From assembly GCA_948467695.1 (NCBI GenBank), contig CAOKFJ010000023.1:1-12257 (forward strand): a stretch of DNA of 12,257 bases. Direction: 5' to 3'. The stretch comes from an uncultured Allobaculum sp. Lineage in GTDB: Bacteria > Bacillota_I > Bacilli_A > Erysipelotrichales > Erysipelotrichaceae. Below the pieces are notes generated by a model. That model saw only the letters and a program-made list of their open reading frames with translations. It did not search any database and had not been told where the DNA came from. The translations under genes were made by a program, and so were the position numbers. Shown one piece after another: positions 2-11,012 of this stretch. Numbering within the stretch: position 1 is the first letter of the stretch; each line of letters opens with the position of its first letter.

Positions 2-3000
2 ATTGGCCATCTGCTGTTTGCCACCCAGTTGGGCTCCAACATGAGTGTTGGCTATTCCAAGACCGTCAACGACAGCACTCTTGGTCTGTACAGCTTCAGC
101 AAAGCCGCCAAAGAACTCGATGCTTCTCCGGCAGTGACGGTTTCCGACGATTCCGTTCGCGCGTCCAGTACCGTGGATGGCGAATTTGTCGCCGAACTCG
201 AAATGGATGGACAGAAGACCGTTCGACCGCTTGTTGATCAAGCCGTTGTCTTTGCCGGTCTGAAAGAGAACACACCGTTTACGCTGCGTATTGTCAGCAC
301 GGATGGCGAACAGATGCTTAAAGCCAAATCCGGCACAACCGGCAAAGCGGATGTAACAGATGAAGCCGACTACGACGAACTCAACGACATGCAGAAAAAG
401 ATTCGCGAGCTTGCATCCCGCGATGAAAAGACCACCTGGCTGTTTATGGGCGACTCGATCACGCACGGCATTCTGACACAGGGCTATGATTCGACGATGC
501 AGGTGTTCGAACACTACATCCATGAAGATCTCGACCGCCCGCAGGATATGATCATCAACACCGGCGTATCGAACGGCGATTTCGAAAACTACACCGCGAA
601 CGAAGCCGATCGCTACGACCGTTACAAAAACGAAACCGATGTTGTCATTCTGATGCTTGGCACCAACGACTCCGCCTACACCGGAAATGACTGGCGCTAC
701 ACCAACTACAAGCAGAACCTGACCAACCTCGTCAAAAAGGTCAAAGCCAACGGTCAGGAAATGGTGCTTCGCGTTCCGCCGAAAATCTCGAGCGACGGCA
801 ACCGCACATGGCATGGTCCGCAGCTGGAAGAATTCCGCGGCTACATTTATGAAATCGCCGAAGAATACAACTGCATCGTTGCCGACCACTGGTCTCTTTT
901 CGATGAAAAGATGAAATCCGATGAAACCTGCACCACCGCACGCGGTACCTGGTACATCCAGGATACGATCCATCCCGATGGACGCGGTCAGCTGGCGATG
1001 GCAAAACAGGTGATTCAGGAAATGGGTCTCTGGGACAAGAGCTCCACAGTCGCCCAGAAAGACTACCTGCCCGCCCGCACGACAACCGAATCAATCATGG
1101 ATGTCGAAATCGTCTATGACGAAACAGCAGGAACTCTTTCCTATGACATTGCAGCGCTTGAAGATGCGATCGGACGGACAGCCGGCGAAGTGGTTCTTGA
1201 AGTGACAAAAGAGGGCGAGACCATCTCCAAAGAACTCATCCGCAAAGAAGATAAATCTCTTGGTTCGATTTCTGTCGATCTGCAGGATCTGAGCGGCGAC
1301 GTGGAGGCGAAAGTCAAAGTCATCACCACCAACGCGCCCAAATCTGAATGTGTCGTCGCAAAGAAAACGGTAACGATCAAAGAAGAAAGCGCCGAACTCG
1401 ATTACACCGCGCTTGGCAAAGTGATCGATGACATGAAGACGCTCAAAGGGGACGCGAACAGCGAACTGCCGGGTGCATGGAACGATCATCTCGCATCCCT
1501 GATTCAGGCAGGCGAATTCGCGCTGATGGGCGGCATGTTCGAAAATCAGGAACAGCTTGACCAGAGCACAGCTGCCTACGAAGCCATTTACGCTACAGCT
1601 GCAAAAGCAAGCGAAGGCTATAAAGCGATTGCTGCCGATAAAGACCTCGATCTTACCGGTTATACCGATGCCTCCGTATCGGCATACAACGCCGCAAAAG
1701 CTGCTCTTCAGGCAGAACTCGACAAGATGGCAAGCCTTGATGTCAGCGAAGCCGATCGCCTGATCAAAGCCTATGCCGATGCGAAAGCGGCTCTTGAAGA
1801 AAAAGCGCCCGAACTTGATATGACTGCGCTCAACACCGCACTTAACGGTATGAAGACACTCAAAGGCGATGCGAACAGCTGTCTGCCGCAGGACTGGATC
1901 GACTTCCTCGACCAGATGATCTTCATGACAGACGATGCGATCGCCAATGACGCATTCAAAACGCAGGATGATATCGACCGCTGGACGGCCTCTCTGGATT
2001 CTTTCCTGACAACAGCCAGCGCGGCAAGCGAAGCCTACAAAGCGCTTGATGCCAACAAAGATCTCGATCTTTCCGGCTATACGACAGAATCTGTCGCAGC
2101 CTACAACGCAGCCAAGACAGCACTCGAAACTGAACTGGCAAAAATGGCAGGACAGGATGCAGCGGAAACTAAGCGACTGACCAAAGCGTATACAGACGCC
2201 CGCGCGGCACTGGAAGAAAAAGCGCCCGAATTCAACCTTGACGAACTCAAGGCAGTCATTGCATCGACAAAAGATCTTGCCGGTGATGAAGCAAGCTGCC
2301 TGCCCGCAGACTGGGTAGACTATCTGAACATGCTTGTCATGGTCGGCGAAGGCTATATTGAAGATGGCTTTACGTCTCAGGAAGAAATCGACGAAATGAC
2401 AGGCTCGCTCAACATGGTGCTGACGGTTGCTGAAAAAGCGAGCGAAGGCTATGCCGCTCTCGATGCCAATAAGGATCTCGATCTTTCGATCTATACGGAC
2501 GAGTCTGCTGCAGCCTACAACGAAGCGAAAGCCGCTCTCGAAGCGGAACTGGCCAAGATGGCGAGTCTTGATGTGGATGCTGCCGATACACTGATCAACG
2601 CCTACTACGATGCATTTGAAGCGCTCCAGGAAAAAGCGCCTGAGTTCAATCTTGATGAACTCAACGCAGCGATTGCCTCTGCCAAAGACCTGGCTGCCGA
2701 TGAAACAAGCTGCCTGCCCAAACAGTGGGTTGACTACCTCGACTTCTTTGTCATGATCGGCGAAGGCTCCATCGCGGAAGGCTTTGCTTCTCAGGAGGAT
2801 ATCGATACCCTTACCGCTTCCTTCAATGTCGTTTTGACAACTGCCGAAAAAGCTTCTGAGGGCTACACGGCTCTCGATGCCAACAAAGCGCTTGATCTGA
2901 GCCAGTACACAGATGAATCCGTTGCTGTCTACAATGAAGCAAAAGCCGCTCTGGAAGCCGAACTGGCGAAGATGGCTGATCTTGATGTGGATGCAGCCGA

Positions 3001-3712
3001 TACGCTGATCAACGCCTACCTTGATGCCGTTGAAGGTCTTGATGAAAAGCCGGCTCCCGGATTCGATCTGTCCGAACTGACCAAAGCGGTGAATGATCTG
3101 AAGACACTTTGGAATGATGCCGGAAACTGCCTGAACGAAGACTGGATGCAATTCCTTGAAATGATGGTTCTCTCCGGTGAAGCTGCAATTGAAGAAAATG
3201 CCTTCGAATCGCAGGATGCCGTCGATCAGACAACACTTGGAATGAACATGATTCTCGATATCGCCTCCACCGCCAGCGAAGGCTATCGCGCGCTCGATGC
3301 CAACAAGACACTCGATCTCTCCATCTACACAGACGAGTCCGTCACAGCCTACAACGAAGCGAAAGCCGCGCTTGAAGCTGAACTCGCCAAGATGGCAAGT
3401 CTTGATGTGGAAGAAACCGATCGCCTGATCGCTGCCTACAATGCGGCCCGTGAAGCGCTTGAAGTAAAAGGCGGCGAAGTTGAAGTGGATCTGAGCATGA
3501 TCACCTACCTGATCGGTGTTGTTGAAGATGCAGATCTGTCTCTTTACAAAGAGGAAGGCAAAGCTGAACTTGCATCTGCACTTGCCAATGCGAAAGCCGT
3601 TCTCGATTCCAAAGACCAGGCGGAAATCGATAAAGCCATGAACGATCTGCTTATGGCATGGCTTGACATGCGTCTGATTCCCAACGAAGAGATGCTTAAA
3701 GATCTCATCTAG
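2..3712 (+). CDS. Secreted SGNH/GDSL hydrolase with five tandem helical/FIVAR-type repeats (5'-partial)
   Basis: The frame is open to the left edge, so the true start and any signal peptide lie outside. A short beta-rich, Fn3-like stretch (about nt 120-330) comes first. An SGNH hydrolase domain follows (about nt 420-1040) with all four blocks: GDS (nucleophile Ser at 455-457), block II Gly at 563-565, GTND (Asn 665-667) and DTIH (Asp 962-964, His 971-973). Such enzymes remove acyl or acetyl groups from esters, often on glycans. A beta module (about 1085-1390) leads into five ~138-residue repeats (1400-3475), then a ~75-residue C-terminal module. There is no LPXTG motif or membrane tail. The TTG at 29 and ATG at 41 are internal to the frame and are not taken as starts. 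The substrate is unknown; a link to sialidase-type proteins is only a guess. A terminator at 3791-3835 ends the unit. Confidence 0.9.
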   Translation: MGHLLFATQLGSNMSVGYSKTVNDSTLGLYSFSKAAKELDASPAVTVSDDSVRASSTVDGEFVAELEMDGQKTVRPLVDQAVVFAGLKENTPFTLRIVSTDGEQMLKAKSGTTGKADVTDEADYDELNDMQKKIRELASRDEKTTWLFMGDSITHGILTQGYDSTMQVFEHYIHEDLDRPQDMIINTGVSNGDFENYTANEADRYDRYKNETDVVILMLGTNDSAYTGNDWRYTNYKQNLTNLVKKVKANGQEMVLRVPPKISSDGNRTWHGPQLEEFRGYIYEIAEEYNCIVADHWSLFDEKMKSDETCTTARGTWYIQDTIHPDGRGQLAMAKQVIQEMGLWDKSSTVAQKDYLPARTTTESIMDVEIVYDETAGTLSYDIAALEDAIGRTAGEVVLEVTKEGETISKELIRKEDKSLGSISVDLQDLSGDVEAKVKVITTNAPKSECVVAKKTVTIKEESAELDYTALGKVIDDMKTLKGDANSELPGAWNDHLASLIQAGEFALMGGMFENQEQLDQSTAAYEAIYATAAKASEGYKAIAADKDLDLTGYTDASVSAYNAAKAALQAELDKMASLDVSEADRLIKAYADAKAALEEKAPELDMTALNTALNGMKTLKGDANSCLPQDWIDFLDQMIFMTDDAIANDAFKTQDDIDRWTASLDSFLTTASAASEAYKALDANKDLDLSGYTTESVAAYNAAKTALETELAKMAGQDAAETKRLTKAYTDARAALEEKAPEFNLDELKAVIASTKDLAGDEASCLPADWVDYLNMLVMVGEGYIEDGFTSQEEIDEMTGSLNMVLTVAEKASEGYAALDANKDLDLSIYTDESAAAYNEAKAALEAELAKMASLDVDAADTLINAYYDAFEALQEKAPEFNLDELNAAIASAKDLAADETSCLPKQWVDYLDFFVMIGEGSIAEGFASQEDIDTLTASFNVVLTTAEKASEGYTALDANKALDLSQYTDESVAVYNEAKAALEAELAKMADLDVDAADTLINAYLDAVEGLDEKPAPGFDLSELTKAVNDLKTLWNDAGNCLNEDWMQFLEMMVLSGEAAIEENAFESQDAVDQTTLGMNMILDIASTASEGYRALDANKTLDLSIYTDESVTAYNEAKAALEAELAKMASLDVEETDRLIAAYNAAREALEVKGGEVEVDLSMITYLIGVVEDADLSLYKEEGKAELASALANAKAVLDSKDQAEIDKAMNDLLMAWLDMRLIPNEEMLKDLI
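1400..3475 (+). repeat. Five tandem ~414-bp coding repeats (helical + FIVAR-like unit)
   Basis: Units start near nt 1400, 1817, 2231, 2645 and 3062, so the period is 414-417 bp or 138-139 codons. Each unit has a first half with a pattern like LPxxWxxxL and a second half like LDLSxYTDESVAAYNEAKAA followed by LExELAKMASLDV, which is FIVAR-like (helical bundle). Units 2-5 carry one cysteine at the same place (codons at 1880, 2297, 2711 and 3128). Unit 1 has Glu there instead. Copies differ at many synonymous positions, so this is an old, protein-level repeat rather than a recent DNA amplification. Such arrays usually act as stalks or spacers on surface enzymes; that role is inferred. Confidence 0.88.
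3484..3709 (+). other. C-terminal module of the SGNH protein, related to the tail of the 5640-10934 protein
   Basis: The last ~75 residues differ from the five repeats and share a pattern with the C-terminus of the leftward giant gene. Both contain a hydrophobic YLIGV or WLAGV stretch, then DLSLYKEEGK or NLDLFKDAGK, an Ala/Leu-rich helix, DMRL or DLRY, and a final EEMLKDLI or EELLKELM. It resembles a FIVAR-type helical hairpin. Its role (surface retention, partner binding) is not evident from sequence. Confidence 0.65.
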
Positions 3713-3790
3713 CTGTAAATCAATTTTCCGCTCTCACTGTATCGTCTTAACTTGAGCGACAGATAATGCGGAGGATATAAAAACAGACTG

Positions 3791-3835
3791 AATCCCCGCT
3801 GTTTCTGCTTTCGAGGCAGATCAGTGGGGATTTTT
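3791..3835 (+). terminator. Rho-independent terminator of the SGNH hydrolase gene
   Basis: AATCCCCGCTG pairs with CAGTGGGGATT (one G-U), and an inner TCTGC/GCAGA stem continues it, so 3791-3832 folds into one long hairpin. A run of five T (3831-3835) follows directly. It lies about 80 nt after the stop codon at 3710-3712. Confidence 0.9.
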
Positions 3836-3938
3836 GTCGTGTGTTCGAGAAGTTTCACATTACATGCCAAAGAGAGCGGAACGCTGTATCTAAGTATAAT
3901 TTTCGCCAATAAATTACACTCGAAGACACATGAGAAAA

Positions 3939-3978
3939 CTTCGAAGTGTAAAAAACGCCTCTTTTTTACACTTTGAAG
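3939..3978. promoter_or_regulatory. Inverted repeat B/C (17-bp arms, 6-nt loop)
   Basis: CTTCGAAGTGTAAAAAA (3939-3955) is mirrored by TTTTTTACACTTTGAAG (3962-3978) around CGCCTC. Only one position departs, and it would be a G-U pair in RNA. The T-run lies inside the stem and is not at the 3' side, so this is not a normal terminator. A dyad operator is more likely. Confidence 0.75.
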
Positions 3979-4089
3979 TGGGAATATTCTTTGCTTGGGA
4001 AGACATCCTCAATTGAGCTTTAAGTGGGTTATAGATTTGCAGGTGTAATTTCTAGCGAAAAAATACCCTTGAAATTGCCTGGAATAGGT

Positions 4090-4125
4090 TCGAAGTGTAA
4101 AAAATCTATGTTTTTTACACTTCGA
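4090..4125. promoter_or_regulatory. Inverted repeat D/E (15-bp perfect arms, 6-nt loop)
   Basis: TCGAAGTGTAAAAAA (4090-4104) is a perfect mirror of TTTTTTACACTTCGA (4111-4125) around TCTATG. It has the same motif and loop length as the dyad 150 bp upstream, while flanking and loop bases differ. That points to selection on the motif itself. Confidence 0.78.
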
Positions 4126-4138
4126 TTACGCTTTTTCT

Positions 4139-4166
4139 TTTTCAAGTGTAAAAAAGCTCCTAAAAT
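4139..4166 (+). promoter_or_regulatory. Possible promoter of the Fic gene, overlapped by repeat copy F
   Basis: TTTTCA (4139-4144, 4 of 6 to TTGACA) and TAAAAT (4161-4166, 5 of 6 to TATAAT) are 16 nt apart. Repeat copy F (4141-4155) fills the gap, which is where a repressor would block polymerase. AT-rich DNA gives such matches easily, so this is tentative. Confidence 0.4.
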
Positions 4167-4226
4167 AAGACTTCAAATACTTAAAGCTTCTATTTCTGTA
4201 TGGATAAAGATTGGAGGAAAGAGAGA

Positions 4227-5408
4227 ATGAACTACAAACTGTTAAAGAATTGTTTTCATGATTCAAAAATTGATTATGAAGAAGAGTATACAAAGCGCTT
4301 TGAATCGATGGTTGCTGTTCATCTTCCATTTGCTGTGGGAGAGTATCAAGCTTTCTTTCTTAGAAATATCGAAGTCAGTGATCTGATCTATCAGATCCAG
4401 AAAGAGAATAAAAATATTGAGAAAAAGGCTGCTAAGTTGTCGGAGTATGGCGCTCTTAGAACTCTTCTGAACACTTGCCTTTTCAAAGAGATTGAACAAA
4501 GCAATGCAATGGAAGAAGTGCATAGTTCCAGAAAAACACTGGCACTGATGTCAAAAACAAGCGAACGAAAAAATACGTATGTTCGTTTTGCAGGACAGTT
4601 GAAACAGTATAGTGCGCTGCTGCGCAATTCGCTGACTGTTCCGACAGACAGCCTGGATATTCGAAGGATTTACGATGTCCTGCTGGCAGATGATATTCGT
4701 TTGGATGATCCTAGTAATTTACCGGATGGAGAGATTTTTAGAAAAGATGCAGTGTATGTGAATGGCGGACTGAAGAATATCCATCGAGGGATCTTTCCTG
4801 AAAAGGAGATTGTGCGTGTAATCGATGAAACATTGGCGACTCTTGAAAATACACTTTCTCCTCTTCGCGCAGCTGTCTTTCATTTCGTATTCGAATATGC
4901 TCATCCCTTTTACGATGGCAATGGACGAATGGGGCGCTTTTTAAGCACTCTGCAGTTGTGTGATGATTTTCATCTTGCTGGAGTTCTTCAGTTGTCTTTG
5001 AAGTTGAGAGAACACAGGCATGCATATTATGAAATTTTTAGAACTTGCGAAAATGCATTGAATCGAGCCGATCTGACGCCATTTGTATTGTTCTTTCTAA
5101 CGCAGCTGCTGGAGGCGATGCGCGAAGGCAACGAAATGTTAGAGAAAAAAATAATTCTGTATGATGCGGGAATAGCAAGAATTGATCGGGAAGATCCTAA
5201 ACAAGGAACTGAACATCATTTTATGACTCTGATGCTTCATGCGGCACTCTTTGAACCAATCGGGTTGCGACAGGCAGAAATCAAAGAAGCATTGAATTGT
5301 TCCGATTCTACGGTGAAAAAACTCATTGGAAAGCATCGGGATGATTTGTACATCGAAAAAGATGGAGCGTATTCTTTATACTCATTACATTATGATTATC
5401 TCAAATAA
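4227..5408 (+). CDS. Fic family protein (predicted AMP-transferase) with C-terminal winged-helix-like tail
   Basis: A 393-residue protein. HPFYDGNGRMGR (residues 226-237, catalytic His226) is the complete Fic active-site motif, which transfers AMP from ATP to hydroxyl side chains of target proteins. VYVNG at 176-180 with the following IHRGIFPE fits the substrate-holding flap. SNAMEE at 92-97, before VHSSRK, matches the N-terminal inhibitory helix motif [ST]xxxE[GN] of class II Fic proteins, with Glu96 as the expected inhibitory Glu and an unusual Glu in the final position. Residues ~345-393 look like a winged helix-turn-helix. The start at ATG 4227 is chosen because GGAGG (4213-4217) lies 9 nt ahead; the in-frame ATG at 4200 has no such site. 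The gene is AT-rich relative to its neighbours, suggesting transfer. It stands alone, with its own repeat-rich control region and terminator and no adjacent antitoxin gene. Target unknown. Confidence 0.93.
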   Translation: MNYKLLKNCFHDSKIDYEEEYTKRFESMVAVHLPFAVGEYQAFFLRNIEVSDLIYQIQKENKNIEKKAAKLSEYGALRTLLNTCLFKEIEQSNAMEEVHSSRKTLALMSKTSERKNTYVRFAGQLKQYSALLRNSLTVPTDSLDIRRIYDVLLADDIRLDDPSNLPDGEIFRKDAVYVNGGLKNIHRGIFPEKEIVRVIDETLATLENTLSPLRAAVFHFVFEYAHPFYDGNGRMGRFLSTLQLCDDFHLAGVLQLSLKLREHRHAYYEIFRTCENALNRADLTPFVLFFLTQLLEAMREGNEMLEKKIILYDAGIARIDREDPKQGTEHHFMTLMLHAALFEPIGLRQAEIKEALNCSDSTVKKLIGKHRDDLYIEKDGAYSLYSLHYDYLK

Positions 5409-5639: not shown

Positions 5640-8600
5640 TTACTGCGCTTTATTCATCAGTTCCTTGAGAAGTTCTTCGTCTTCTTTGTAACGGAGATCG
5701 AGAATCGCTTTGTTCAGATTTGCGCCGGAACCATTCAGTGTATCCTGATCGATTCCATCGCTATTGCCGTTTTCGATATCTTCAAGCAGACGGTTGGTTT
5801 CAGACAGGGCATTCTGGAAAGCTTCCTTGCCTGCGTCTTTGAACAGATCGAGATTGAACTCGGCCGCCACACCGGCAAGCCATTTTACCAGAGCGGTATC
5901 GAGGCTCACGTGTTCGCGACCTTCGGCGATGACGCGGATTTCCGCGGCGCTGCTCCATTCCCCCTGTGTTTCGGTCGGCGCGATGCGGATCGCATTGGCG
6001 CTGGACGCATCGAAGGTGACGATTTTCCATTCGCGGTCGTTTGCCCAGTCAAAGGACGCGGCTTCCGTCCATGTCTGTCCTCCGTCGCTGGAGAGCAGGA
6101 TTTTTCCTTTAAGCAGGTTGCCGTGATCGCTCGAATCCTGACGCGGCAGAACGCGCACGCCTTTGATTTCGCGGATCTCATCCAGGTTGAGCTGGATCCA
6201 GCGGTCTTCAACGGGGATTGTTCCGGCATTGTATTTGGTATGCCAGATGGTGCCCTTGTTTCCGTCGAGAACATTTTTCGCCGGACCTTCGCTGCCGGTT
6301 GTCGAATGTTCGCTGCCTGCCGTAGCGCTCATGGTCGCGGGATCGACGGATTCATCGTTTCCATAGGCAACTAGACGAATGGTGTAAGTCTTCGAGGAAG
6401 CATTGCGTTCGGAACGCACCTGAAGACGTACTGTCTGCTCTTCATACGGCTTGTCGAGCGTGACGGAAATAGACTGTCCGGCTTCGACTTTTTCACGATC
6501 ATAGTAGATGGTCGCTTTTTCGCCATCTGCTGCGGGCGTCAGTTCAACGGTTCCGCCGTCAAGAGGAAGATTGATGGTGTAGTCGGTAAGGGCGGGATCA
6601 AAGGATTCATTGAGCGTGCCGCCTTTGACATCAAGAGACGCCATATCGCAGTTGCGGTCGATATCGGAGAGATCAGCCGCGTTTTCTTTTGTGGAAATCC
6701 ACTGAGGCGAGCCAGCTTTGATGGTCTGCGTTTTTGTACCGTCGTAGAAGTTTACGTCGACAGCGCGTTCGCTCATCACCTGAACGCTGACATTGGAGAC
6801 AACGTCTTCTGCAGGTGTGATGACAAGCTTGCCATCCGCCTCTGCAACGGAGCAGTTGAATGCTTCAAATGTGCCGTCTTCTTTTTCAAAGACATAAGCT
6901 TTGGTCAGAGCGACTTCGCCAAGCGCTTTGAAGACTTCGTGCACGTCGTTGTCGCAGCAGGCGCCCTGTGTGACTGAACCGCCCATATTGGTATAGCCGG
7001 GAACCCATGTATCTTTGGGCGCTTTCCACCAGTAGGAGATCATCGGAACGTACTGTTCACCGATGGTTCTCTGTTCATGTTTGCCCACGATAACGTCGTC
7101 GTGGGATTTTTCTTCATCTTTGACGAAGAATTTGGTGACACGCTGCGGATCGGGGATGAATGCCCAGTTGAGCTTTCCGTCATAGCCCATCAGCTGCGCG
7201 CAGGAGCCCATGGTGTTCATGCCGCGTTCAAGGTATTCGGTGTTGCCGGTCAGTTCATACAGATTGAACAGGCCGTAGATGTTCCACGCTGTCCAGCCGT
7301 GCGGAGAGTTCATCATGTTGGGCGCGGAACTGGTCAGTTTCATCTCCACGTCGTATTGCGCTTCCCAGAAACGGAGCGTTCCGCCCGACATGCGGGAGTC
7401 AGGGATCTGTGTCTGTTCATGCGAAGTGTGGCGATCCATATATTTCACGGCAGCGTCGGTGTATTTTTTGCGTTCAGCGCTTCCTTCAGGGAACATGAGC
7501 GCAAATTCGGAAAGCTGCGTGATGGAGCAGGAGTTGGCGCCGTCTTCATACGTGCCCTGACCTTCGGTATCGAAGTTGCCGTCAACGCGGACGAGTTTGT
7601 CCATTGCTTTGGTCAGCGAATCCATGTGCAGATCATAGCGTTCTTTGTAGTAGGCGCGCGTATCGGCATCGAGGGATTCATCGTTCATCAGACGTTTTTC
7701 GACATGAACGAGTTCCATGATGGATTTAGCGGGATAGATTACGGAGGTGTAGTCGGTTCCGCCGTTGTAGTAGCCGCCGTCGGCTTTCTGCTTGCTCATC
7801 AAAAAGTCGGCGAGGTGTTCGGCTTTGGCGAGCGCTTCTTCATTGCCGTTCGATTCATACTGGTCGACGAAAATGCCAAGTGTGGTCGAATGGTTCTGGA
7901 TGCGGTTTTCCCAGGAAGTCGGATTGCCGGATTCCATGTCGTACATCAGCGGATAGATTTCATCCCAGTTGTCATCCACCTGTTCGTCCCATTTTGCATC
8001 CGGGAAGTACTTGCGGGCAACGTACGCGGAGTAGAAGCCATAGTAGGTTTCCGCATGGCTCGAACCTTTCTGTCGTGCTTCAACAGAAGCTTCACGGGCT
8101 TTCTGGATATACCAGGACCAGTCGTTGCGGATCGAAAGCATCATTTCCGCTTCGTAGCCTGCTTCGTTGATAGCTATGACTTTGTATGCGCCGGCTTCTT
8201 TGCCTGCGGCATCAAAGGAAGCGGTGTATACCCCATCGCTGGCTTTTGTCACTTCGAGTGTGGATTCTTTGCCATCAGGCGCGGTGATATGAAGAACATT
8301 GTCTTTGATCGGCGATGCGGAGCGCAGTGTGATGGCGCTCTTTTCGCTGTCAGCCATGGTGTAGCGGTCGGCGTCGAATACCGGAACGGTTGTGCCTTTC
8401 GCAATGACAGGTTTGATTTCATCAATCGCGTTCAGTTCGCTTGCGGGCTGCAGAGCGATGGTCCATGTTTTTTCTTCATTGGCTTCAAGATGATCGAGTC
8501 CCTGCGGGTGGCGCTCAGGCAGATCGCCGGACTGGAGAACATCGAGAGAGGCGGAGTAGATGCGGTGCTGACCGCTCTGGTAGTCGAGGGTGTAGCTTGC

Positions 8601-10934
8601 AACAGGCGCGTCAGTCGCAAATGTCATCAGCATGCCCGAGGGAGAGGAGAAATAACCCCACGCGTGCGTTTTTTCGCAGCGCATCAGTGTTGGGAACAGC
8701 TGATAGTTGTAGTCGGGATAGCGTTCGAGATAGGTATCAAAGCCCATCTGGAGAGAAGCCTGATCGATTGCCTGGATTTCGTCTTTATTGTTTTTCAAAG
8801 ACGCTTCGATGATCAGCTGTCCTTCGTCATTGAGTTTGTATGCAAGATTGACGGCAACATCCGCGCCGTTTGCGGTGTATTTGCCAGTGTAGACAATTTG
8901 TCCGTTTTCATCGGCGTCCGCGGCGTTCATCGAGACGCGCTTGCCGTTGATGCGCCAGCCAAAACCGGAGTACTGGTCGTTGCGCACAGGAATTTCAAGC
9001 ATTTCGCCGCCGATGCGGGTTTTGAGGGCATTGATATTGCCGCCAGTATGATCGACAACCCAGTTTTCGTTATGGATCGTTTCATCTGTATTGGCAGGTT
9101 CAATATCCGAGAGTGTCACCGCGCTCAGGTTGATGTTGCCCCATTTGGCATCGTAGGCTTTTGTGACTCTGACGCGCAAAGAGACTGTGTCGTCTGCGGA
9201 AACGGTCTGATAGACAAGCGAAGCCATCTGATAAACAGTGGTATCGGGAGTGGTGTTCGAAGAACCGAATTTTGTCGAGTACTGCACTTTGTCATTGACG
9301 AGAATTTCAATAACGCCATCGGCAGCCCATGCGCCCGCATATACATTGACATAACGCGGTGCTGTCGAGGCAGGCAGGTTCATGGTCATGGATGTGCCTT
9401 CATGTTCGAGAACAGTCGCAAGATGACTGTCTTCAGCGCTGGCTTGTGTTGTGCCGTCTGTCCATGAGAAGGCGGTTTTCGCTTTTTTGGCGATCTGGTT
9501 CTGAATGGTTCCAGATGGAGTGATGTCTGTGATCAGCGGTGTCGAGGCGTTCTTGCGTTCAACTTTGGCAAGATCAAGATTGTTGAAATACACCCAGTCG
9601 AGCAGTCCCTGATCGGACAGGTTTGCGGCAGCCGGTGCGGATTTGATTTTTCCTCCGGCGATGCTTCCATCATCTTCCACGCGGGCTGTACCGAGCGTAA
9701 TGGCGCCGATGTTGATGTTGCCCCATTTCTGGTCGTAGACTTTGCCGACTTTTACCGTGACATTGACCATGTCGCCATCGCTGTCGGTATGGAAGTTTGT
9801 GCGCAGCACATTGTATTTTGCGGGAGATCCGGCTGTGGTGTCGGAGGAACCGAACGATTTTTTGAGGATTTCATTTCCGTTGACGGACATCGTCACTTCA
9901 ATATCGGCTGCCCAGCATCCGGCATAGATATCCAGATACTGCTCCGCGGTTGAGCCGGGCACGCTGAAAGAGAAGCCATTGTTCGCGCCGGTGAAAACAA
10001 GCGCGTCATGCTTGCCTGGTTTGGAGAGCATGGTATCCGATCCGTCGGAATAGACAAACTCGGTTTTATGGTTGGTGGTGACATAGTCCTGCTTGCCGAT
10101 CAGAGTCATTTCGCCAAGTTTGCCTTCCGGAACGTTTTTGCGGGTAAATCCAGCAAAGTCGGTATTGTCCATGCAAAGCCAGTCGATGTCGCCCTGCTTG
10201 GTCAGATTGACGCGCGAGGGAGATTCTTCGACAACAGCGGTAGCGTATTCGGTTTCCGTGCCATCGGAAAAGTCCTGAGGCGCATCAGATACGGCAACAG
10301 CCTGAATGCTGTGGTTGCCGTAGACACTGTCAGCAACCTCAACGGTTTCGATCACGACGCGAACGGTGTCGTCAGCAGAGTCGGTGTGATAGTGGAACTG
10401 TGTAAGGTAGCTCTTGGCGCCTTTGCCGGTGGACATGGAGCCATGCGTGTTGGTGTAGTATTCAACGTCGTTGATGAATACGCTCAGTTTGATCTGCGAA
10501 GCCCAGCTGCCCGTGAAGATGGACACATAGGTTTCTTCGGTGCGTGCGGGGAGCGTGAATTCGCTCTTGCCGCCGATTTTGTTGATGACCTGCCCTTTGC
10601 GGTTGTTTTCGGGCGCACCGGTGTAGACAAAGTTGGTGTCGGTATCGGTCATGATCTGGGCAATCGTGCCGCTCATTGTCACGGACGAGATCAGACCTTT
10701 TTTTGCTCCGGCCCATTTGGACTGGTCTTTATCGCAGGCATGGAACCAGTCGAGATTTCCGGCAGCTTCCAGGTCAGCGCTTTGCGGAGCGCGCTTGACG
10801 CTGCCGACTGTCGTTTCTTTTGTTTCTTCTTTGGCAAGGACGATCTGGCCTGTCATCTGCGGCAGCGCGTTAGGAATAATCATCGCTGCGGCAAGCAGAG
10901 CGGCAGATGCCCTTTTCATAAAGCGTTTTTTCAT
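5640..10934 (-). CDS. Secreted multimodular glycan-active enzyme (predicted six-hairpin glycosidase/lyase fold, CBM32)
   Basis: A 1764-residue protein. Residues 1-34 form a signal peptide (MKKRFMKR, hydrophobic core ~9-20, likely cut after VLA). Three homologous beta-sandwich modules follow, marked by LDW/IDW at residues 61, 250 and 445. Residues ~620-840 look like a beta-sandwich, ~840-935 like an Ig-type module, and ~940-1390 like an alpha/alpha barrel with conserved-looking stretches SWENRIQNHS, PDSRMSGGTLRFWE, MMNSPHGWTAWNIYGL and CCDNDVHE (1326-1333). Then come a cadherin-like sandwich (~1428-1520), a CBM32/F5-8C module (~1530-1670) and a FIVAR-like tail (~1675-1764). Sandwich plus barrel fits polysaccharide lyases or glycosidases, but I cannot name the family or the catalytic residues. 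The start at 10934 follows GGGAAGAGAG and gives a clean signal peptide; the upstream in-frame ATG at 11006 does not. A cre site suggests catabolite repression. Confidence 0.88.
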   Translation of the reverse strand: MKKRFMKRASAALLAAAMIIPNALPQMTGQIVLAKEETKETTVGSVKRAPQSADLEAAGNLDWFHACDKDQSKWAGAKKGLISSVTMSGTIAQIMTDTDTNFVYTGAPENNRKGQVINKIGGKSEFTLPARTEETYVSIFTGSWASQIKLSVFINDVEYYTNTHGSMSTGKGAKSYLTQFHYHTDSADDTVRVVIETVEVADSVYGNHSIQAVAVSDAPQDFSDGTETEYATAVVEESPSRVNLTKQGDIDWLCMDNTDFAGFTRKNVPEGKLGEMTLIGKQDYVTTNHKTEFVYSDGSDTMLSKPGKHDALVFTGANNGFSFSVPGSTAEQYLDIYAGCWAADIEVTMSVNGNEILKKSFGSSDTTAGSPAKYNVLRTNFHTDSDGDMVNVTVKVGKVYDQKWGNINIGAITLGTARVEDDGSIAGGKIKSAPAAANLSDQGLLDWVYFNNLDLAKVERKNASTPLITDITPSGTIQNQIAKKAKTAFSWTDGTTQASAEDSHLATVLEHEGTSMTMNLPASTAPRYVNVYAGAWAADGVIEILVNDKVQYSTKFGSSNTTPDTTVYQMASLVYQTVSADDTVSLRVRVTKAYDAKWGNINLSAVTLSDIEPANTDETIHNENWVVDHTGGNINALKTRIGGEMLEIPVRNDQYSGFGWRINGKRVSMNAADADENGQIVYTGKYTANGADVAVNLAYKLNDEGQLIIEASLKNNKDEIQAIDQASLQMGFDTYLERYPDYNYQLFPTLMRCEKTHAWGYFSSPSGMLMTFATDAPVASYTLDYQSGQHRIYSASLDVLQSGDLPERHPQGLDHLEANEEKTWTIALQPASELNAIDEIKPVIAKGTTVPVFDADRYTMADSEKSAITLRSASPIKDNVLHITAPDGKESTLEVTKASDGVYTASFDAAGKEAGAYKVIAINEAGYEAEMMLSIRNDWSWYIQKAREASVEARQKGSSHAETYYGFYSAYVARKYFPDAKWDEQVDDNWDEIYPLMYDMESGNPTSWENRIQNHSTTLGIFVDQYESNGNEEALAKAEHLADFLMSKQKADGGYYNGGTDYTSVIYPAKSIMELVHVEKRLMNDESLDADTRAYYKERYDLHMDSLTKAMDKLVRVDGNFDTEGQGTYEDGANSCSITQLSEFALMFPEGSAERKKYTDAAVKYMDRHTSHEQTQIPDSRMSGGTLRFWEAQYDVEMKLTSSAPNMMNSPHGWTAWNIYGLFNLYELTGNTEYLERGMNTMGSCAQLMGYDGKLNWAFIPDPQRVTKFFVKDEEKSHDDVIVGKHEQRTIGEQYVPMISYWWKAPKDTWVPGYTNMGGSVTQGACCDNDVHEVFKALGEVALTKAYVFEKEDGTFEAFNCSVAEADGKLVITPAEDVVSNVSVQVMSERAVDVNFYDGTKTQTIKAGSPQWISTKENAADLSDIDRNCDMASLDVKGGTLNESFDPALTDYTINLPLDGGTVELTPAADGEKATIYYDREKVEAGQSISVTLDKPYEEQTVRLQVRSERNASSKTYTIRLVAYGNDESVDPATMSATAGSEHSTTGSEGPAKNVLDGNKGTIWHTKYNAGTIPVEDRWIQLNLDEIREIKGVRVLPRQDSSDHGNLLKGKILLSSDGGQTWTEAASFDWANDREWKIVTFDASSANAIRIAPTETQGEWSSAAEIRVIAEGREHVSLDTALVKWLAGVAAEFNLDLFKDAGKEAFQNALSETNRLLEDIENGNSDGIDQDTLNGSGANLNKAILDLRYKEDEELLKELMNKAQ
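5643..5915 (-). other. C-terminal FIVAR-like tail module of the multimodular enzyme
   Basis: About 90 residues after the CBM32 module. It shares landmarks with the C-terminus of the 2-3712 protein: WLAGV, NLDLFKDAGK, DLRY and EELLKELM. It carries a ~15-residue insertion (IENGNSDGIDQDTLNGSG region) relative to that tail. There is no LPXTG sorting signal and no membrane helix after it. Confidence 0.6.
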
Positions 10935-10936
10935 TT

Positions 10937-10946
10937 CTCTCTTCCC
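10937..10946 (-). promoter_or_regulatory. Ribosome binding site deciding the start at 10934
   Basis: On the minus strand GGGAAGAGAG directly precedes AAATG at 10934. It supports this Met, 24 codons inside the longest open frame, as the real start. The translation from here begins MKKRF, a typical signal peptide charge cluster. Confidence 0.65.
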
Positions 10947-11012
10947 TTTTTCTGTTTTGTCCGGCAGGGATTCCGGATTCTTTTCTTCTTTTGAAAAGTG
11001 AAGCAAAATGAT

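Follow-up and report, generated by a model that had tools for sequence, protein, structure and literature searches.

The array of inverted half-sites upstream of a Fic gene in an uncultured Allobaculum sp. is likely to be the autoregulatory operator of the downstream protein, a Fic enzyme with a C-terminal winged helix-turn-helix (wHTH) domain, whose dimers would bind cooperatively at 51-52 bp intervals, cover the promoter and keep the AMP-transferase low. Dyads of similar geometry and different letters stand before divergent Fic-wHTH genes of the Bacillota, and their half-sites recur at this same distance.

In the window, by which we mean the whole stretch of 12,257 nucleotides that was analysed, sequence inspection and a repeat search found GTGTAA half-sites in alternating orientation at 3914-4155, five strong and one degraded, in agreement with the original prediction of six alternating copies over ~240 bp (Table 1). 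The half-site is the 8-mer AAGTGTAA or its complement, with AAGTGTAA(AAAA) as its longer form, and half-site starts lie 22 and 29-30 bp apart. AAGTGTAA occurs five times in 3900-4200, whereas 5000 dinucleotide shuffles average 0.02 and never exceed 2. Two hairpins with equal 6-nt loops of different bases had also been predicted, and both are present: 3938-3955/3962-3979 has 18-nt arms, 94% complementary, around cgcctc, and 4090-4104/4111-4125 has 15-nt arms, 100% complementary, around tctatg.

Table 1 Features of the half-site array and the Fic-wHTH gene in the window.
Feature	Position	Strand	Basis or match
Half-site TTACACTC, degraded	3914	-	sequence
Half-site, AAGTGTAA-type	3944-3951	+	sequence
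Half-site, AAGTGTAA-type	3966-3973	-	sequence
Half-site, AAGTGTAA-type	4093-4100	+	sequence
Half-site, AAGTGTAA-type	4115-4122	-	sequence
Half-site, AAGTGTAA-type, strong	4144-4151	+	sequence
Weak dyad, centre 3906.5; left arm CTAAGTATAATTT, right arm includes degraded TTACACTCGA (3914)	3890..3923	.	arms 8 and 7 of 13
Strong dyad A, centre 3958.5, 6-nt centre cgcctc	3938..3979	.	arms 13 and 12 of 13
Weak dyad, centre 4055.5; GGTGTAA at 4042 (+; GTGTAA at 4043), degenerate - partner	4039..4072	.	arms 7 and 6 of 13
Strong dyad B, centre 4107.5, 6-nt centre tctatg	4089..4126	.	arms 13 and 13 of 13
Dyad, centre 4158.5; strong + half-site 4144-4151, weak right arm	4140..4175	.	arms 11 and 7 of 13
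Promoter-like TTTTCA-16-TAAAAT, overlaps last dyad	4139..4166	+	promoter scan
Ribosome-binding site GGAGG	4213..4217	+	sequence
Fic-wHTH gene, 393 aa	4227..5408	+	Pfam, motif, model
C-terminal wHTH, residues 328-387	5208..5387	+	AlphaFold2 model, mean pLDDT 92.4; structural matches

The five dyad centres follow one another in steps of 52, 97, 52 and 51 bp, and the half-site of the last dyad, 51 bp from dyad B, is the first-ranked match among 96 offsets. The weak dyads (3906.5, 4055.5 and the right arm of 4158.5) are argued from their phase of 51-52 bp relative to the strong ones, because singly they do not rise above background: at least 8 of 13 positions are matched at 181 places in the window, and an out-of-phase arm at 3974 matches 9 of 13, above every weak-dyad arm other than the strong left arm of 4158.5. 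Neither the 149 bp between dyads A and B nor the middle gap of 97 bp is a multiple of 51. A 68-aa GTG open reading frame at 4024-4230, with no Pfam match, crosses the array and extends over the start codon of fic; it is probably a by-product of the repeats.

The letters of the array are almost confined to the fic upstream region in this 68%-complete genome. Ten places in the 1.99-Mb assembly match the 16-mer with at most two mismatches, five of them being the array itself, and a reversed control pattern gave seven matches. A lone TTTTTTACACTTGAAA half-site (L005:1501-1516; G000 contig C5, 19800-19815) is found 25 bp from the end of the contig, immediately 5' of a minus-strand ATG that possibly marks a second target gene.

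The downstream protein scores 43.6 bits against the Pfam Fic domain PF02661 (gathering cut-off 24), and its Fic motif HPFYDGNGRMGR at residues 226-237 fits HPFx(D/E)GN(G/K)RxxR, with H, P, G, N, G, R and the last R invariant across 50 aligned sequences. SNAMEE at residues 92-97 resembles the class II inhibitory helix (S/T)xxxE(G/N) in its S and E, with E in place of G/N at the last position; the alignment consensus there is TNxIEG. With 45.5 bits, the protein falls far under the NCBIfam cut-off of 550 for the SoFic equivalog NF046030. The winged-helix-like C-terminus anticipated in the original prediction is borne out by the AlphaFold2 model and by fold matches, with HTH helices at 349-356 and 360-369 and wing strands at 374-379 and 382-387.

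That prediction had also noted no adjacent antitoxin or regulator gene, and we recognised none beside fic: six small flanking open reading frames have no Pfam match, a search that a tiny or novel antitoxin might escape. The larger neighbours (29-3712 and 5640-11006) code for a protein with a GDSL-lipase domain and for a large one that combines F5/8 type C with cadherin-like domains; no connection between either and Fic was seen. Nor does any neighbour gene recur across 83 Fic loci; the commonest has relatives in five other loci, and by eye these commonest neighbours resemble site-specific recombinases. Distant matches to the window protein include ORF56 of the Lactococcus phage TP901-1 (27% identity) and several genes of streptococcal satellite phages, and this suggests carriage of such Fic relatives as lysogenic cargo.

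The original prediction named homologous genes lacking the motif as evidence against it, and as far as letters go this is what we found. In the 450 bp upstream of 22 homologues (31-37% identity; the closest, P0002-P0004, P0006 and P0007, at 44-50% over most of their length, lay outside this comparison), none carries two or more GTGTAA copies, six carry one and 16 none. On its letters the prediction is therefore contradicted; what is conserved is the spacing, a feature it had not seen.

Dyads as such are common before these genes. A dyad score of at least 10 was found upstream of 31/52 Fic loci (window included, five loci dropped beforehand), and 29 of the 31 were matched by at most one of 60 shuffles. 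Counted as AT-rich dyads at -150..-1, the 31/52 compares with 3/81 control upstreams (Fisher p 3e-13); these controls, intergenic regions 5' of other genes at the same loci, reach 5/81 when all dyads are counted. More genomes and prophage contigs brought the set to 99 loci, after 11 had been dropped for lacking a start, N-terminus or upstream region, and clustering at 80% identity left 83 (the window gene among them, with 26-38% identity to the rest; start codons of compared genes were mostly chosen by script). Of these non-redundant genes, 36 have their own dyad within 150 bp upstream (at most two of 100 shuffles as good) and 47 have no significant one. When 37 dyads (score at least 10, at most three of 100 shuffles) were aligned by their centres, an A-tract spanning distances 3-7 (0.55-0.77) and a T at 11 (0.70) were common to them, and they differed elsewhere. 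One homologue from the same genus (L036) has an upstream two-dyad array in other letters; it and L045 are reported with one in-frame stop.

The spacing emerges when the half-site of each of the 37 genes is scored at all offsets from that gene's dyad. Two offsets, 51 and 52, stand apart from the rest, with mean z of 1.40 and 1.13 (1.30 and 1.13 with the window left out), followed by 53 and 50 at 0.50 and 0.39 and by 0.37 as the best elsewhere. The half-site recurs 50-53 bp away at z >2 in 23/37 genes, the median over offset windows being 4/37. A threshold-free lag test, which matches repeats at each lag over -260..+20 without calling dyads, again placed 51 and 52 first in the 83 upstream regions (mean z 1.02 each, SE 0.11). 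Lags 50-52 exceeded z 2 in 38/83 Fic genes (median of lag windows 6), and even the 46 genes without a called dyad gave 1.02 and 0.87 at lags 51 and 52, with 20/46 over z 2. Coding controls scored 0.57 and -0.01 (12/83 over z 2, median 7.5), where we take the value at lag 51 to reflect three-base periodicity, and distal upstream controls scored 0.37 and -0.10 (7/78, median 7).

The rule follows the long C-terminal tail, which serves as a proxy for the wHTH in the compared genes, the domain having been modelled for the window protein only. With a cut at 160 residues, lags 50-52 were found in 8/13 long-tailed compared with 0/16 short-tailed Fic genes. Among other Fic genes (30 of 37 loci usable, seven dropped), dyads precede 8/20 whose tail beyond the motif is 150 residues or longer (two of the 20 being one place and both carrying a dyad) and 0/10 with a shorter tail. 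The SoFic-type set (six of 47 loci dropped, then 41 reduced to 34) peaks at lag 51 with mean z 1.84 (SE 0.17; 21/34, controls 3/34 and 4/34), a recurring half-site in it being TTGAAATAAG; since loci are shared, it is not independent of the long-tail lag-test set. One locus, L136, has an alternating array closely resembling that of the window.

We do not claim the 51-bp ruler outside the Bacillota, where plasmid loci from other phyla gave no clear signal. In 21 plasmid loci, mostly non-Bacillota (one from Bacillota, six shared with the SoFic-type set, three starts guessed, two of these without a start codon), lag 51 had a mean z of 0.66, with 6/21 over z 2 (median 2), and lags 41, 30, 24 and 31 scored higher. 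The strongest lag in the upstream regions of L203-L224, mostly non-Bacillota plasmids, is 41 bp, one helical turn under 51, and may be a variant spacing or background. The cyanobacterial pair L204/L205 fits the 51-bp spacing (z 2.8 and 2.4). A scan of viral contigs with an alphaproteobacterial SoFic query found no match.

A second regularity concerns the promoter, and it is firm for SoFic-type genes only. In 21 SoFic-type promoters a dyad centre lies 25 bp upstream of the -10 (mean z 1.74, SE 0.22). Additional symmetry appears at -76, -50.5 and +0.5 to +1, so the -10 is about midway between dyad positions. For window-type genes the register is weak. A strong promoter match was found in 29/82 of them compared with 9.4 in shuffles, and in these 29 the top-ranked position for a dyad centre is 25.5 bp downstream of the -10 (0.77, SE 0.19), followed by -5.0 (0.63) and -46.0 (0.53). 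In the 16 strict-promoter genes with a dyad, -59.5 (1.14) equals +25.5, and in the 13 without one +25.5 is outside the top ten; 54 looser promoters are led by -5.0 and -9.0 (0.46), with -25.0 at just 0.39. No promoter of fic was recognised in the window: its one promoter-like site is off the 25-bp register seen in SoFic-type genes and is not evidence by itself, because one such site was found where shuffles give a mean of 1.4.

In Phd-Doc and other autoregulated toxin-antitoxin operons, a Fido-fold toxin is under an upstream palindromic operator to which a separate antitoxin binds; in the window, by contrast, enzyme and predicted DNA-binding domain are one protein. Autorepression by Phd is mentioned in PMC2686095, whose authors noted HTH tails on Fic enzymes as early as 2009 and proposed that Fic-fused HTH domains may regulate fic expression. 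The nearest parallel, judged on its published description, is CccR of Yersinia pseudotuberculosis, a class II Fic protein with a C-terminal HTH that represses its own promoter by binding to an inverted repeat there (PMC9755527). It shares with the window a Fic enzyme with a C-terminal HTH (modelled here) and an inverted repeat upstream of its own gene. Its dyad was footprinted, autorepression was found and the excerpts of PMC9755527 describe no separate regulator, whereas binding and repression in the window are predicted from sequence. CccR has a single dyad with 10-bp arms 26 bp apart, unlike the repeated dyads at 51-52 bp in the window, where a 6-nt centre, not 26 bp, separates the arms; CccR is also secreted by a T6SS and used between cells (PMC9755527). 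No CccR entry was recognised among the fold matches listed, which carries no meaning.

Sofic of E. coli, one of the SoFic/Sofic anti-phage Fic proteins (PDB 3EQX, 3ZCN; PADLOC model SoFic; PMC12249575), has a small downstream antitoxin gene, AS1, the like of which we did not recognise beside the window fic. The words DNA-binding, HTH and transcription are absent from the main text of PMC12249575. Coxiella Fic2 shares the C-terminal wHTH with the window protein, and DNA binding stimulates its activity, with a proposed shift to a deAMPylating dimer; it differs in that random DNA was tested, that the excerpts of PMC10628234 describe no operator, and that it targets host histones (PMC10628234).

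In the simplest mechanism, Fic dimers occupying adjacent sites would repress their own gene. Each dimer would read a pair of inverted half-sites through its C-terminal winged helices; as 51-52 bp is about five helical turns, neighbouring dimers would lie on one face of the DNA and could bind cooperatively, and once bound they would cover the promoter and keep a toxic or otherwise costly AMP-transferase low. That Fic itself binds, that control is repressive and that binding is cooperative we infer from these patterns; a coupling to AMPylation is conjectural for the window. Comparative support for the putative enzyme-operator-only module first proposed is strong, coming from dyads of similar geometry before divergent Fic-wHTH genes and from the 51-52 bp spacing with long tails, but the motif letters are not shared. 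Against the operator reading we count the 47/83 genes without a significant dyad, the 97- and 149-bp gaps, the off-register promoter-like site of the window, the weak -10 register of window-type genes, the plasmid loci from other phyla with no clear ruler, an excess of G-T mismatches in the dyad arms and the lack of recognition-helix covariation. On the last point, half-site similarity correlates with wHTH similarity in 34 genes (r 0.21, p 0.0005; dyad genes with proteins <375 aa dropped), and the Fic domain and N-terminus correlate too; given the Fic domain, partial Mantel tests on the 34 genes gave p 0.07 for the wHTH and p 0.69 for the helix. The half-site letters thus follow overall protein relatedness and not the recognition helix.

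It is conceivable, if doubtful, that Fic-wHTH goes further and forms a regular polymer on its own promoter, one protomer per ~25.5 bp, with the enzyme held inhibited or deAMPylating; alternating half-sites would then supply two kinds of twofold axis and 51-52 bp per dimer. If so, the occupied promoter would keep fic silent and at the same time serve as a reserve of inactive enzyme, and active AMP-transferase would be set free once the array was lost, as might happen when a phage takes over the chromosome.

Among explanations that do without binding by Fic, an operator for a different, unlinked transcription factor controlling fic and perhaps other genes is improbable. The absence of specific covariation with the recognition helix and the lone half-site on contig C5, ahead of a minus-strand ATG, would suit such a factor. 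However, the array is nearly unique in the genome, with five of ten loose matches being the array itself and the reversed control giving seven, and the 51-52 bp rule tracks Fic genes with long tails, in several groups of Bacillota and on prophage contigs, and is absent with short tails, a pattern not easily accounted for by a host regulator. We consider it less probable again that the dyads act as RNA hairpins in a long leader transcript, through attenuation or stability. An intrinsic terminator scan found no terminator-like site in 3700-4300, the window has no Rfam match, the fixed-distance A-tract and the 51-52 bp spacing fit duplex DNA more naturally, and SoFic-type dyads lie upstream of the -10 and therefore outside the transcript; these outweigh, in our estimate, the complementary arms of 15-18 nt and the small lean towards RNA pairing in arm mismatches (eight G-T compared with one A-C). 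That the array is what is left of a mobile element (a MITE or its terminal inverted repeats), or arose by chance and regulates nothing, is highly improbable: clusters A and B do form a 37-nt inverted repeat, 84% complementary and 111 nt apart, but their outer spacers resemble each other no more than shuffled ones do (nine matches, with 909 of 1000 shuffles as good), the 68%-complete genome has no second array, and the same layout recurs in other letters before homologous genes.

Autoregulation by a cooperative array of Fic dimers thus remains our preferred reading. Autorepression by a Fic-HTH protein is already known from CccR (PMC9755527), and a 2026 AMPylation review describes such self-regulation (PMC12894286). 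Among the matches listed from the open-access literature, to which subscription papers and preprints do not belong, CccR is the sole natural Fic-HTH operator that we recognised, and the titles and abstracts of the open-access matches listed, within the same bounds, make no mention of a fixed spacing of repeated operators. As a regularity of many divergent Bacillota Fic-wHTH genes, the 51-52 bp rule predicts the binding sites of Fic-wHTH proteins, supplies a large group of enzymes, SoFic-type proteins included, with candidate operators, and makes the coupling of DNA occupancy and AMPylation testable.
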